DNA from: Acidobacteriota bacterium
Lineage (GTDB): Bacteria > Acidobacteriota > Blastocatellia > Pyrinomonadales > Pyrinomonadaceae
Direction: 5' to 3'
Assembly (NCBI GenBank): GCA_003697135.1
Contig: RFGC01000022.1
Coordinates: 1-33,563, forward strand
Length of the DNA: 33,563 nucleotides
Made by a program: the position numbers and the translations under genes. Below, in pieces: positions 19,057 through 23,475 of the stretch. Within the stretch, counting starts at the first letter, position 1, and each line of letters opens with the position of its first letter. The notes under the pieces were generated by a model. It was not told the origin of the DNA and ran no database searches. It was given only the letters and a program-made list of their open reading frames with translations.

Positions 19057-20802
19057 ATGAGCGTAAAAACTTTTGAAAAAAAAGAGTGGAAAATCAAAAA
19101 ACATAATCGCGAATTAGTGGAAGATTTCGCTAAAAAACTCAACGTTCATCCGCTTACGGCAGCGCTTTTAATTTCACGTGGCTATAGCTCAGTGCTAGAC
19201 GCCCTTGTATTTCTCTATCCATCATTGAATTCCTTCTATTCGCCGTTTTTACTGAAAGACATCGAAAAAGCCGTTAATCGAATTATAGAAGCCATTAAAC
19301 GGAAAGAAAAAATTTTGATATGGGGCGACTACGACGTTGACGGAACAACAGGAACCGTTGTTTTGCTGAAAACTTTTCGCAAGCTTGGGATTGAAGCCGA
19401 TTACTACATACCGCATCGGACTAAAGAAGGCTATGGATTGAACCTGGAAGCTTTGAAAAAGAAAAAAGAAGAAGGCGTTAAACTCATCATCACGGTTGAC
19501 ACGGGAAGCCGCGCTCTTGAAGAAGCTCTATGGGCAAAAGAAAACGGTATTTGCCTGATAGTTACCGATCATCACATCCTGAAAGAAGACGAAAACCAAG
19601 TTGAGGCTTATGCCCTGATCAATCCGCATCAAAAAGATTGCTCGTATCCCAACAAAAAACTTGCAGGCGTAGGCGTTGCTTTCAAGTTGGCTCAAGCCTT
19701 GCTTGAAAAGAAAGGAATCAACGACGAAGAATTTCTAGCTCAACTCCTAGAACTGGTTGCTGTTGGCACAGTAGCTGACATCATGGAGCTTACAGATGAG
19801 AACCGCAGGATAGTGAAATTTGGTCTGAAAAATTTGAAAAACACTCAGAATAAAGGCTTGAGAGCATTGATTGAAGTAGCTGGCCTTAAAGATAAGCCAA
19901 ATTTAAGCTCATACAACATCGGCTTCCAAATTGCTCCGCGCATCAATGCCGCCGGAAGGCTTGAACATGCAAATCTCGTTGTTGAACTACTCGAAACGGA
20001 TTCTGAAGAAAGAGCGTCTGAGATCGCCCGAACGCTGAATGAAATTAACAAGAATCGTCAAGAATTGCAAAGCAAGATGGTTGAAGAAGCTCTTGAGAGC
20101 ATAGACAAGGCTCTAAAAGCTCCCCAGGAGATACCTCATGTAATCGTGATAGCCAAAGAAAATTGGCATCGTGGAGTTATAGGCTTGGTAGCATCAAAAG
20201 TAACGGAAAAATTTAATCGCCCAAGTTTTATAATTTCTGTTGAAGATGGCGAAGGACACGGTTCAGCAAGAAGCATTATGAATTTTAACGTTGCAGAAGC
20301 ACTTGAAAGTGCAAGTGAGATTCTTATCAAACATGGCGGACATGCTCAAGCCGCAGGCTTTAAGGTCCGAGTTGATGACATCCCTACACTTGAAGAACTC
20401 CTAAATCGCTACGCTTCGGAAAAACTATCAGAAAAAGACCTAAAACCTTGCATAACAATAGATGCCCATCTTTCCTTCAAATCCATTAATTTCAAACTTT
20501 GGGAGGAACTACAACTATTCGAGCCTTTCGGCATTGGAAATCCGAAACCTGTTTTTTTGACTCGCGCGGTTAAAGTGAAATCGAAAAAGATGCTGAACAA
20601 AGGCATAAAATTCACTCTGGAAAAGGACAAAAAAACATTTGAAGCCGTCCTGTGGGAAACAGATAATCAACATGTCTTTGAAATTTTCTTTAGCATCCCC
20701 GACGGTGAGATGATAGATGTAGTTTATGAATTAGGAATGAACGACTGGAATGGCTTAAAGCAGTTACAGCTCATCGTCAAGGATTTTAGAATATCGCAAT
20801 GA
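19057..20802 (+). CDS. recJ: Single-stranded-DNA-specific exonuclease RecJ
   Basis: DHH-family 5'-3' exonuclease acting on single-stranded DNA in recombination and base-excision repair. It has about 581 residues. The motifs appear in order: WGDYDVDGTTGTV (DHH motif I, about residue 90), ITVDTGSRALEEA (motif II), IVTDHHIL (DHH box), NPHQKDCSYP with KLAGVGVAFKL, then DHHA1-region blocks RINAAGRLEHA, HRGVIGLVASK, GHGSARSI and GGHAQAAGF. A C-terminal OB-like segment finishes the protein. The open frame begins with a GTG at 19048, but the ATG at 19057 has a GAGGTGAAAGGA ribosome site and is preferred. Only 10 bp separate it from uppP, and its stop overlaps the next start by 4 bp (20799-20802). Confidence 0.96.
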   Translation: MSVKTFEKKEWKIKKHNRELVEDFAKKLNVHPLTAALLISRGYSSVLDALVFLYPSLNSFYSPFLLKDIEKAVNRIIEAIKRKEKILIWGDYDVDGTTGTVVLLKTFRKLGIEADYYIPHRTKEGYGLNLEALKKKKEEGVKLIITVDTGSRALEEALWAKENGICLIVTDHHILKEDENQVEAYALINPHQKDCSYPNKKLAGVGVAFKLAQALLEKKGINDEEFLAQLLELVAVGTVADIMELTDENRRIVKFGLKNLKNTQNKGLRALIEVAGLKDKPNLSSYNIGFQIAPRINAAGRLEHANLVVELLETDSEERASEIARTLNEINKNRQELQSKMVEEALESIDKALKAPQEIPHVIVIAKENWHRGVIGLVASKVTEKFNRPSFIISVEDGEGHGSARSIMNFNVAEALESASEILIKHGGHAQAAGFKVRVDDIPTLEELLNRYASEKLSEKDLKPCITIDAHLSFKSINFKLWEELQLFEPFGIGNPKPVFLTRAVKVKSKKMLNKGIKFTLEKDKKTFEAVLWETDNQHVFEIFFSIPDGEMIDVVYELGMNDWNGLKQLQLIVKDFRISQ

Positions 20803-21896
20803 ACAAGCTAGAAAAATTACTTGTTTTTTCCATTTTCTTTGTTTTGGGCGTAAAAACTATGGCTCAATTAAGTAACAAAACGCCGACGATAGGTGGCGTG
20901 TATGAAGTTGGCATAGGCGCTGGCTCTCAAACTGATGAAAAATGGTTGATAGCCTACTTTGAGAGATTCGGTTACAGAGTTGGGAAAATTGGCTCTTTAA
21001 GCGCAGAAGAAGCCGAAAAGTTATACGGCGTTAGATCAGCACTTAGGTCAATTCGTCTTCTTCACCAAGATTCAGATCACGGACTGATTCGGATAATGAT
21101 TTGGGAAAAACCCGTAAATGAAGGTCTGGGACTTTCGCCGATGAATGTTTTAGGAAATCGCTGGGGAGCAATGCTTACGGCCGACATTTACAATATCCAA
21201 AATCACACGGAAGAAGCTATTGCGCAAGGAATGCCGATTTACTACGTTCCGCCACAGCGGGCAGAAATTTACAAACTCGAAAAACGCCCAATTCCGTTCT
21301 TGGAAAATTATGCGGCGGTAAGGGAAATGTGCCTGATTCAACCCTTAACACGCCAGATTATTTTTCAAAGATTCGGATACAGTTTGCCATTCTACGGAAA
21401 AATCAATCCTGATTCCTTCTTCAAATCATCACAAATTACACACTTCGGCATGGTAATTTACAAAAATCAGGAAAATATTGATTTTTATGGTGATGTTCTG
21501 GGCTTACTAAAAGTCAAAGAAGACAGCGATTATGTTTCAACTTACGATGAGCCTTCTGCAAGGGCGATTTTTCAACTCGAAAAGCACCAAAAATACGGTG
21601 CTACAGATTTTGATAATCCGCTCAGTTCCAAAGACCCGACGAAAGCACTTTCAGGGAGACTAAAAATTATCTGGTTTTCTCCCGACTCAAAACTTGAAGA
21701 CAAATTCGCATACAGCAAGCCTGGCAGTCTTGGCTATTCTTTATACACCTACAAGGTTACCAACATTGAACACTATCACCGCAAGGTTAAGGAAAGCAAA
21801 GCTACTAATGTGACACAGATTTTGACGAACGAATTCGGCGAAAAAAGTTTCTCTTTCGTTGCTCCAGATGGATATTTTTGGACGATTCTGGAATAA
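20799..21896 (+). CDS. Exported VOC/glyoxalase-superfamily protein
   Basis: The protein has 365 residues. Residues 1-23 form a signal peptide (basic start, hydrophobic FSIFFVLGV, cleavage after TMA-Q). The mature part contains two vicinal-oxygen-chelate-like modules. The second (about residues 215-365) shows THFGMVIYKNQENIDFYGDVLGL near its start and FSFVAPDGYFWTILE at the end, the usual first and last beta-strands of glyoxalase/bleomycin-resistance folds. The first module carries YEVGIGAGSQTDEKWLIAYF. The substrate is unknown; the family includes dioxygenases, lyases and binding proteins. Coupled to recJ by a 4-bp overlap, probably by operon compaction more than shared function. An export signal is uncommon for this superfamily. 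Confidence 0.75.
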   Translation: MNKLEKLLVFSIFFVLGVKTMAQLSNKTPTIGGVYEVGIGAGSQTDEKWLIAYFERFGYRVGKIGSLSAEEAEKLYGVRSALRSIRLLHQDSDHGLIRIMIWEKPVNEGLGLSPMNVLGNRWGAMLTADIYNIQNHTEEAIAQGMPIYYVPPQRAEIYKLEKRPIPFLENYAAVREMCLIQPLTRQIIFQRFGYSLPFYGKINPDSFFKSSQITHFGMVIYKNQENIDFYGDVLGLLKVKEDSDYVSTYDEPSARAIFQLEKHQKYGATDFDNPLSSKDPTKALSGRLKIIWFSPDSKLEDKFAYSKPGSLGYSLYTYKVTNIEHYHRKVKESKATNVTQILTNEFGEKSFSFVAPDGYFWTILE

Positions 21897-22080: not shown

Positions 22081-22177
22081 TATAAAAAATTAAAAGCGGC
22101 GTCTCCCACACCGCCGCTTCATTGGCCACAAGTCCTCACCCCTCGTGACCAATAAACGTCCACCGGGGAGGTGGACA
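22081..22177 (-). ncRNA. Candidate small RNA with three tandem hairpins and an intrinsic terminator
   Basis: Read on the minus strand, three hairpins follow in succession. The first has 7 bp (22170-22176 with 22158-22164, loop UCCCC). The second has 9 bp (22145-22153 with 22121-22129, 15-nt loop with GGGG). The third has 8 GC-rich bp (22112-22119 with 22094-22101, loop GUGUGGGAGA) and is followed by UUUUAAUUUUUUAU. The second stem contains a U-G pair on the minus strand that would be an A-C mismatch on the plus strand, so the RNA sense is minus. The UCCCC loop is complementary to GGGG in loop 2 and to GGGA in loop 3, allowing kissing interactions. A promoter-like pair lies directly upstream. 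It matches no RNA family I know. It could instead be a structured 3' UTR of the minus-strand gene at 22306. Confidence 0.55.
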
Positions 22178-22183
22178 TTACAA

Positions 22184-22212
22184 ATTATGTCTAATTAAAA
22201 AAAACTTTGCAA
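22184..22212 (-). promoter_or_regulatory. Candidate promoter of the three-hairpin RNA
   Basis: On the minus strand TTGCAA (22207-22212, 4 of 6) is followed after exactly 17 bp by CATAAT (22184-22189, 5 of 6). The expected transcription start, about 22177, coincides with the first base pair of hairpin 1. Confidence 0.5.
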
Positions 22213-22305: not shown

Positions 22306-23475
22306 TCAAGTTTTGATAAACTCATTTCCCATCAAGAAAAATGCTAGGTTAGGTCTTTCGTGTGAACGGTCATAGCCCACAAGCTCGACATATGCTCTGC
22401 CGTTGCAAGGCGCGCCCTTAACTTCACAAGCACCTTCCCAATAAACAATCATGGTCGTTCCACGGGTATCTAGTTCTTGATCCTGCAAAAATGGAGTCAC
22501 AGTTAGATCGAGGTTGAATTTTGGAACCTTTACGCGCCATCCGCTTGGATATTTCGCTCCTGTGTTCGGCGAAGTCCATGAACCCAAAACCTCTATGCTG
22601 AATTCGCCGAAATCTAAAAAGTAAGAATTTCCATTCTCATCAACAAAAGTTCCGCAAGAAAATTCAGACACGCGATCTTTGCTATCTCGAAGCTGATAGC
22701 ACATCAGTTCCGTACTGTTTTCAAGTTGAATTGAAAACCAATCCCAACCTTTTTGTTTTTCGGTCGGAAACCATGTCCCGAATTCCCTATCCATCCACGC
22801 CGAGCCACTGAAATGTTCAACACTGCCCGCTTTGCTTATGAAACCGTCAACTTTCATTCTGGTATAACTGAAATACCTCGAAGCTTGCCCTTCGTCTTTG
22901 AAAGATACCCCGTCTTGATTTCTGCCGTTCAAGACAACCCTTTTAGTCGGCGTCAGCGTGGCTTCAAAACTGATATTGCCAAGCGAAGCCTTGAGAATGT
23001 GATCGCCGTTTGATTCTCTTAAAGACCAGTCACCAAGCCGAACATAAAAATTTTTTTCGCTTGCTACTGCAGGAAAATCTAGCAAACCGTTTGCGCTTTT
23101 GCGATGAGCGTATCGAAATCTTTTTTTCTCAATATCTGTAATCGCAAAATGAGCGAAATAAAGCGGATTCCCGAAGAGTCTAAGCGGAACGACGCTGAAT
23201 TTGTCAAGATCAGTGCGACGCTTGAAAAAGACAAGCTCAAAACCGAAATTTTTGCCTGAATCAGTCGCGCAATGTCCCGTGTAATACCACCACTCGGTTT
23301 GAGCGCTGCCGTGCGCGGCTAAATCTTTCGGAAGTTCAACTGGCTTATACTCGCTTCCGTCTCTTAGGTTTTCAGGCTTTCCTACTATTGTCTCTGCCAC
23401 CGTCTCAAAAAACGACGCGGCAGTTTCCTCAAAATTTCTCAAAATGTCCTCAAAATCAAAAAAATCCCTTCCCAT
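22306..23475 (-). CDS. AttH/CrtC-like (carotenoid 1,2-hydratase-type) lipocalin-fold protein
   Basis: A 389-residue member of the AttH/CrtC superfamily, two lipocalin-like barrels in tandem. The family signature HGSAQTEWWYYTGH lies at about residues 56-69. GFELVFFKRR follows, then FAHFAITD, and SAWMDREFGTWF with GWDWFSIQLENS in the central region. The C-terminal segment IVYWEGACEV precedes a GRAYVELVGY block. Relatives are annotated as predicted secreted hydrolases or hydroxyneurosporene synthase-like proteins acting on lipids or carotenoids. This protein has no evident signal peptide: it opens with a charged, acidic and aromatic helix, so it may be cytoplasmic. AGGGAG upstream of the ATG supports the start. 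No carotenoid genes lie nearby, so the substrate is unknown. Confidence 0.8.
   Translation of the reverse strand: MGRDFFDFEDILRNFEETAASFFETVAETIVGKPENLRDGSEYKPVELPKDLAAHGSAQTEWWYYTGHCATDSGKNFGFELVFFKRRTDLDKFSVVPLRLFGNPLYFAHFAITDIEKKRFRYAHRKSANGLLDFPAVASEKNFYVRLGDWSLRESNGDHILKASLGNISFEATLTPTKRVVLNGRNQDGVSFKDEGQASRYFSYTRMKVDGFISKAGSVEHFSGSAWMDREFGTWFPTEKQKGWDWFSIQLENSTELMCYQLRDSKDRVSEFSCGTFVDENGNSYFLDFGEFSIEVLGSWTSPNTGAKYPSGWRVKVPKFNLDLTVTPFLQDQELDTRGTTMIVYWEGACEVKGAPCNGRAYVELVGYDRSHERPNLAFFLMGNEFIKT

Follow-up and report, generated by a model that had tools for sequence, protein, structure and literature searches.

A three-hairpin RNA conserved across the Pyrinomonadaceae is a predicted stand-alone small RNA with nearly invariant loops

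The window, the whole stretch of 33,563 nucleotides that we analysed from an Acidobacteriota genome (contig RFGC01000022.1), carries a lipocalin/CrtC-like gene ending at 22306 and, further downstream, a convergent gene. The intergenic DNA between them contains, on the minus strand from 22212 to 22084, a sigma70-type promoter sequence (TTGCAA-17-CATAAT) followed by three hairpins lying next to one another and by a terminator tail rich in U. Judging from this sequence and its homologs, we conclude that it encodes a real small RNA of approximately 95 nt with three hairpins that was previously uncatalogued. Elsewhere in the window, positions 20799-21896 (plus strand) encode a 365-aa protein whose C-terminal part looks VOC/glyoxalase-like by eye, with no Pfam hit. 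The parts of the RNA locus are as follows.

22207..22212, minus strand: -35 element TTGCAA (sequence, and kept in homologs)
22184..22189, minus strand: -10 element CATAAT, after a 17-nt spacer (sequence, and kept in homologs)
about 22177, minus strand: predicted transcription start, 7 nt after the -10 element as expected from promoter spacing, at the first pair of hairpin 1
22157..22177, minus strand: hairpin 1, loop UCCCC at 22169-22165 (fold and homolog pairing)
22121..22153, minus strand: hairpin 2, loop GGGUGAGGA at 22141-22133 (fold and homolog pairing)
22094..22119, minus strand: hairpin 3, the terminator stem, loop GUGUGGGAGA at 22111-22102 (fold and homolog pairing)
22084..22095, minus strand: U-rich tail UUUUAAUUUUUU, intrinsic terminator (terminator match, and T-rich in homologs)

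The minus strand folded at -47.1 kcal/mol (z -5.7), a value equalled by none of 200 shuffles. The opposite strand folded less well (-33.2), in line with the G-U pairs fixing the RNA strand. An initial annotation of this DNA had already pointed to such a pair, and had also read the promoter, the start at the first pair of hairpin 1 and the third hairpin as an intrinsic terminator; all of these readings agree with the predictions listed above. Its stems of 7, 9 and 8 bp nearly without spacers need correction in part: the three hairpins are indeed adjacent, with short linkers, but the stems measure 9-10, 13 and 8 pairs in the window sequence, of which the alignment retains 8, 9 and 9 pairs as the conserved core. 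It had recognised no known family, and our scan of the whole window against Rfam 15 likewise returned nothing at gathering scores. At a permissive threshold only SprD appeared, at 14.2 bits against a cut-off of 100, which is a chance match. We regard the three-hairpin RNA as a new family within an already familiar class, the small RNAs.

The distribution of the RNA was determined using several searches. By plain DNA comparison, 33 of 97 related genomes carried it, and every one of the 33 belongs to the Pyrinomonadaceae, the family of the window's genome. A covariance model built from the first 20 aligned copies raised this to 94 of 119 Pyrinomonadaceae genomes, a few of which rest on weak matches only that belong to a related RNA type. 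When the model was applied to a phylum sample of 396 genomes, 28 matched; 27 were Pyrinomonadaceae, and the one outside had a marginal score. A pattern scan of named genomes gave 60 matching sites, located in records that bear the label Pyrinomonadaceae, Blastocatellia or Acidobacteria, among them one Aridibacter famidurans genome bin (L129). Convincing homologs thus appear, on the strength of these searches, to be confined to the Pyrinomonadaceae.

Conservation of the stems had been named in the initial annotation as a point on which its reading would stand or fall, and covariation as a way to check it. In a first MAFFT alignment of 20 copies, two-sided changes were found in 14 of 26 pairs. 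For a larger alignment 84 copies were collected, representing 76 distinct sequences; 98.5% of cells were paired, 23 of the 26 pairs showed two-sided changes, and 59 further pair types were present. Shuffled controls gave 10.5 two-sided pairs and 38 pair types, and versions slid out of register at most 8 and 30; none of 500 shuffles and no slid version came near the observed covariation. This alignment was fitted to the model and leans towards the structure, but the independent MAFFT alignment agrees. Among the 76 homologs the helix of hairpin 1 was 98.4% paired with two-sided changes in 5 of 8 pairs, and every modelled pair changed on both sides in hairpin 2 (9 of 9; 99.1% paired) and in hairpin 3 (9 of 9; 98.1% paired).

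Most genomes carry one orthologous locus, and the RNA has apparently been inherited vertically within the family. We considered a mobile element and rejected it: there was no match in viral contigs or plasmids, and the copies sit mostly at the one orthologous locus. No credible paralogs of the three-hairpin RNA were found within the window's own genome. Separately, contig C14 of genome G030 holds four copies in differing neighbourhoods (L059, L072, L123, L148).

In most genomes the gene order at this locus is a polysaccharide-export (SLBB) gene, a matrixin-like protease gene, the RNA, the gene of a KimA-like transporter, a zinc-finger protein gene on the opposite strand and purD; the transporter was identified by eye and had no Pfam hit. 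Some genera have other genes upstream of the RNA, and in others an AA_permease_2 transporter replaces the KimA-like one. In most genomes a KimA-like or second APC-type transporter lies approximately 100 to 300 nt downstream on the same strand, as would be expected if the RNA were a cis-acting leader or attenuator of this gene with hairpin 3 as a regulated terminator. The gap in front of the transporter, however, contains in many genomes a separate promoter of the TTGACC...GCGTAAAAT type located after the RNA terminator, and in two genomes also a c-di-AMP riboswitch (RF00379; L102:613-748 and L100:3361-3495). Moreover, in about a dozen genomes, as in the window, the RNA is complete although the transporter is missing behind it; in the dozen, the convergent zinc-finger gene or purD follows directly, and in the window too a convergent gene comes directly next. 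The arrangement of a riboswitch or cis-leader, always upstream of the regulated gene and co-transcribed with it, was not what we found, and we regard the leader explanation as largely refuted and very improbable. Other genomes (L108, L083, L091, L097, L114) have in this gap a leader of no assigned class, which comes with a separate promoter and a hairpin resembling a terminator.

The promoter elements recur in the homologs. Of the 76, 66 have a -35 sequence (TTGCAA, TTGAAA, TTGCAT or TTGCTT) ahead of hairpin 1 and 67 have a -10 sequence (CATAAT or GATAAT), mostly with TG before it; the spacing of both to hairpin 1 hardly varies. Scores of 9 or 10 of the 12 consensus letters were reached by 54 of 76 homologs, compared with 2.2% in shuffles. 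Four further offsets gave 0 to 1 such scores among about 75 sequences, and an offset of +150 gave 12, probably through the next gene's promoter. A U-rich tail, counted as at least 6 T within 12 nt, follows stem 3 in 69 of the homologs. In a single sequence, promoter or terminator matches in this region occur no more often than by chance, and it is their conservation in relatives that makes both elements credible.

On the same basis the RNA could be separated from the gene in front of it. In the window it lies approximately 130 nt behind the lipocalin/CrtC-like gene on the same strand, with no strong terminator noted between the two, and it might therefore be read as a processed 3' UTR of the upstream gene or as an ordinary terminator region. 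Almost every homolog nevertheless keeps the promoter, whichever gene stands upstream (in relatives a matrixin-like protease gene or others), and hairpins 1 and 2 with their frozen loops are not needed for termination. We therefore give the 3' UTR explanation very little credence; the initial annotation had named a transcript seen only as the 3' UTR of the gene at 22306 as the finding that would overturn its reading, and the relatives point the other way. With a promoter that persists behind differing upstream genes, and a downstream transporter that is missing from several carriers, the RNA is best described, as far as conserved sequence elements can tell, as a stand-alone small RNA transcribed, as had been proposed, from a promoter of its own; it would then be no 3' UTR and no leader of a single gene. 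A small peptide was considered and rejected: in some genomes an AUG in hairpin 1 reads, by eye, through the whole RNA, but this AUG is not conserved. Linkers vary by 1-2 nt between homologs, and such single-nucleotide variation leaves no conserved reading frame.

While the stems vary, the three loops are nearly invariant (UCCCC, (GG)GUGAGGA and GUGGGAG). Loop 1 is UCCCC in 65 of 76 homologs, the others having ACCCC (6), CCCCAAAA (2), GCCCU, UCCC or UCCCU. Loop 2 contains GUGAGGA in 74 of 76 and ends in UGAGGA in 75, with UUCG in the remaining one (L070). Loop 3 contains GUGGGAG in 75 of 76 and UGGGAG in all. In hairpin 1 the letters of the upper stem (CACC) hardly vary either, which yields CACCUCCCC, whereas stem 3 swaps letters freely next to its loop; this difference is as expected if CACCUCCCC is a recognition sequence. 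Hairpin 1 contains CACCUCC, which is identical to the core of the universal 16S 3' tail (the anti-Shine-Dalgarno), and hairpin 1 thus looks like an anti-Shine-Dalgarno mimic.

The initial annotation had further raised the possibility that loop 1 kisses loop 2 or 3, which would make the RNA a self-regulated switch or a dimer. The complementarity exists in the window, where UCCC of loop 1 matches GGGA of loop 3 and its CCC matches GGG of loop 2. It is not maintained in the eight homologs with ACCCC or CCCCAAAA in loop 1: these keep loop 3, and in their loop 2 the GGG is lost where a letter restoring the match would have been needed. A genome of the same genus (G001) has GCAUGAGGA in loop 2. Kissing between the loops is hardly to be expected on these data.

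The terminator hairpin with the loop GUGUGGGAG is not confined to the present RNA: these bacteria have at least two further small RNA types that carry it, and these account for weak model matches of approximately 76 nt. A tRNA was rejected as the source of such matches, as the scan of one locus of this sort (L073) showed none. The first of these types consists of two hairpins, a C-rich loop hairpin and the GUGUGGGAG-loop terminator hairpin, and lies beside a BaiN/HI0933-like flavoprotein gene, with 2-3 tandem copies in some genomes (L134-L153, L198, L206; for example L134:2930-3016 and L135:2248-2508). It resembles the present RNA in both hairpins and differs in lacking hairpin 2, in its hairpin 1 loops (UCCAC, GCCCU, ACCCU, GCCUU) and in its locus. 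No Rfam match was found in the two-hairpin loci scanned. A model of this type (R2) gave matches of at least 50 bits in about 40 genomes; in the window's genome it matched only the three-hairpin RNA itself, and the two-hairpin type is absent there.

Several further RNAs of this kind were observed. In a third type a hairpin with the loop CCCCCAAAA is combined with the same terminator loop (L141 at about 2480-2600, L152, L213). On a 12.7-kb contig (G039, C7), L147:2452-2552 joins a GCCCU hairpin 1 to the present RNA's hairpins 2 and 3; this chimeric RNA lies near a ParA-like gene, perhaps on a plasmid. Additional hairpins with the loop GUGUGGGAGA, some with long stems, occur in other contexts (L203, L205, L215, L221).

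A terminator loop common to several types suggests a common handle combined with exchangeable C-rich hairpins. We tentatively put forward, as a possibility and no stronger, a modular small RNA system of the Pyrinomonadaceae, in which the invariant GUGUGGGAG terminator loop would be the handle of an RNA-binding partner, the exchangeable C-rich hairpins would confer target specificity, and the three-hairpin RNA would be the most widely conserved member.

The initial annotation had also raised a CsrA-type sponge, which the data do not support. CsrA (PF02599) is absent from the window's genome (G000); it was found in 8 of the 60 family genomes searched, leaving 52 without it, and in 9 of 97 relatives. 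Neither GUGAGGA nor GUGGGAG has an A two bases before GGA, so both loops lack the ANGGA consensus. The present RNA resembles the CsrB/RsmZ sponges in carrying GGA in hairpin loops and differs from them in having only two such loops, no ANGGA and no CsrA in the genome. The frozen loops, mainly GUGAGGA and GUGGGAG, might instead act on some RNA-binding protein that is not CsrA, by titrating or recruiting it, with base pairing secondary. Both purine-rich loops contain GGA and are nearly invariant in 76 homologs, and different small RNA types, some of them in tandem copies, have the GUGUGGGAG loop on their terminator hairpins as well; taken by themselves, the frozen loops 2 and 3, rich in purines, would suit a protein partner just as well. 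On the other hand, CsrA, the known protein of this kind, is missing as described, the ANGGA consensus is lacking, and the loop 2 of L070 has been replaced by UUCG. Taken together, we find protein binding as the main function somewhat unlikely, though a serious alternative.

We rather favor the explanation that the RNA is a stand-alone, trans-acting base-pairing regulator whose C-rich, anti-Shine-Dalgarno-like hairpin contacts mRNAs, and our analysis suggests that base pairing with mRNAs is probably the way in which it regulates other genes. The RNA would be transcribed from its own promoter and end at hairpin 3, and Hfq could stabilise it at the U-rich tail. Hairpin 1, with CACCUCCCC much like the 16S anti-Shine-Dalgarno, would pair with G-rich ribosome-binding sites of target mRNAs and block their translation. 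The C-rich loop would provide target specificity, and the GUGUGGGAG terminator loop may be a handle common to several RNAs, by which a protein or a partner RNA takes hold. Of the 60 genomes searched, 59 encode Hfq, the window's among them (G000:C12:340686-340868; 63.8 bits, over the cut-off). The predicted promoter, intrinsic terminator, intergenic position and conserved structure, along with an Hfq gene in the genome, are those of an Hfq-class small RNA.

Candidate targets were sought upstream of start codons. No perfect 9-base complement of hairpin 1 was found before start codons in the window's genome. Genomes carrying the RNA had 31 such matches compared with 12 for a reversed-pattern control, and non-carriers 77 compared with 18; after this control carriers and non-carriers did not differ (Fisher p 0.27). 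In a rough sample of 453 reading frames, GGGGA was not enriched upstream of starts (4 versus 6) and GGAGG was (16 versus 3). Pairing of loop 1 with Shine-Dalgarno-like target sequences is possible, as the initial annotation had suggested from the letters of the loop.

According to a survey published in 2022, the phylum Acidobacteria has only 4 annotated small RNAs (PMC9029176). A family-wide RNA with 23 of 26 pairs covarying and frozen loops can be taken straight to experiment, and a terminator loop that several small RNA types have in common offers a testable hint of a common partner.

Two groups of known small RNAs are the closest in design. The alpha-r14 (cuckoo) RNAs of alphaproteobacteria, such as NfeR1, share the three hairpins, the ultraconserved loops on highly variable stems and a C-rich anti-Shine-Dalgarno motif in a loop (PMC10746234); anti-SD loops are thus known from three-hairpin RNAs (PMC10746234). 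In alpha-r14 all three loops carry CCUCCUCCC, whereas here the loops are UCCCC, GGGUGAGGA and GUGUGGGAGA, only that of hairpin 1 being C-rich and the other two purine-rich. The alpha-r14 RNAs also belong to a different phylum, and the present RNA is without any Rfam match. The Firmicutes RNAs RsaE, RNAIII, FsrA, LhrC and SprD have UCCC in a hairpin loop as well, and pairing of such loops with SD sequences is established for them (PMC4132741). LhrC is multicopy (PMC4132741), as is the two-hairpin type of the Pyrinomonadaceae in some genomes. These RNAs have no sequence homology to the present one, to which the frozen purine-rich loops 2 and 3 are particular.
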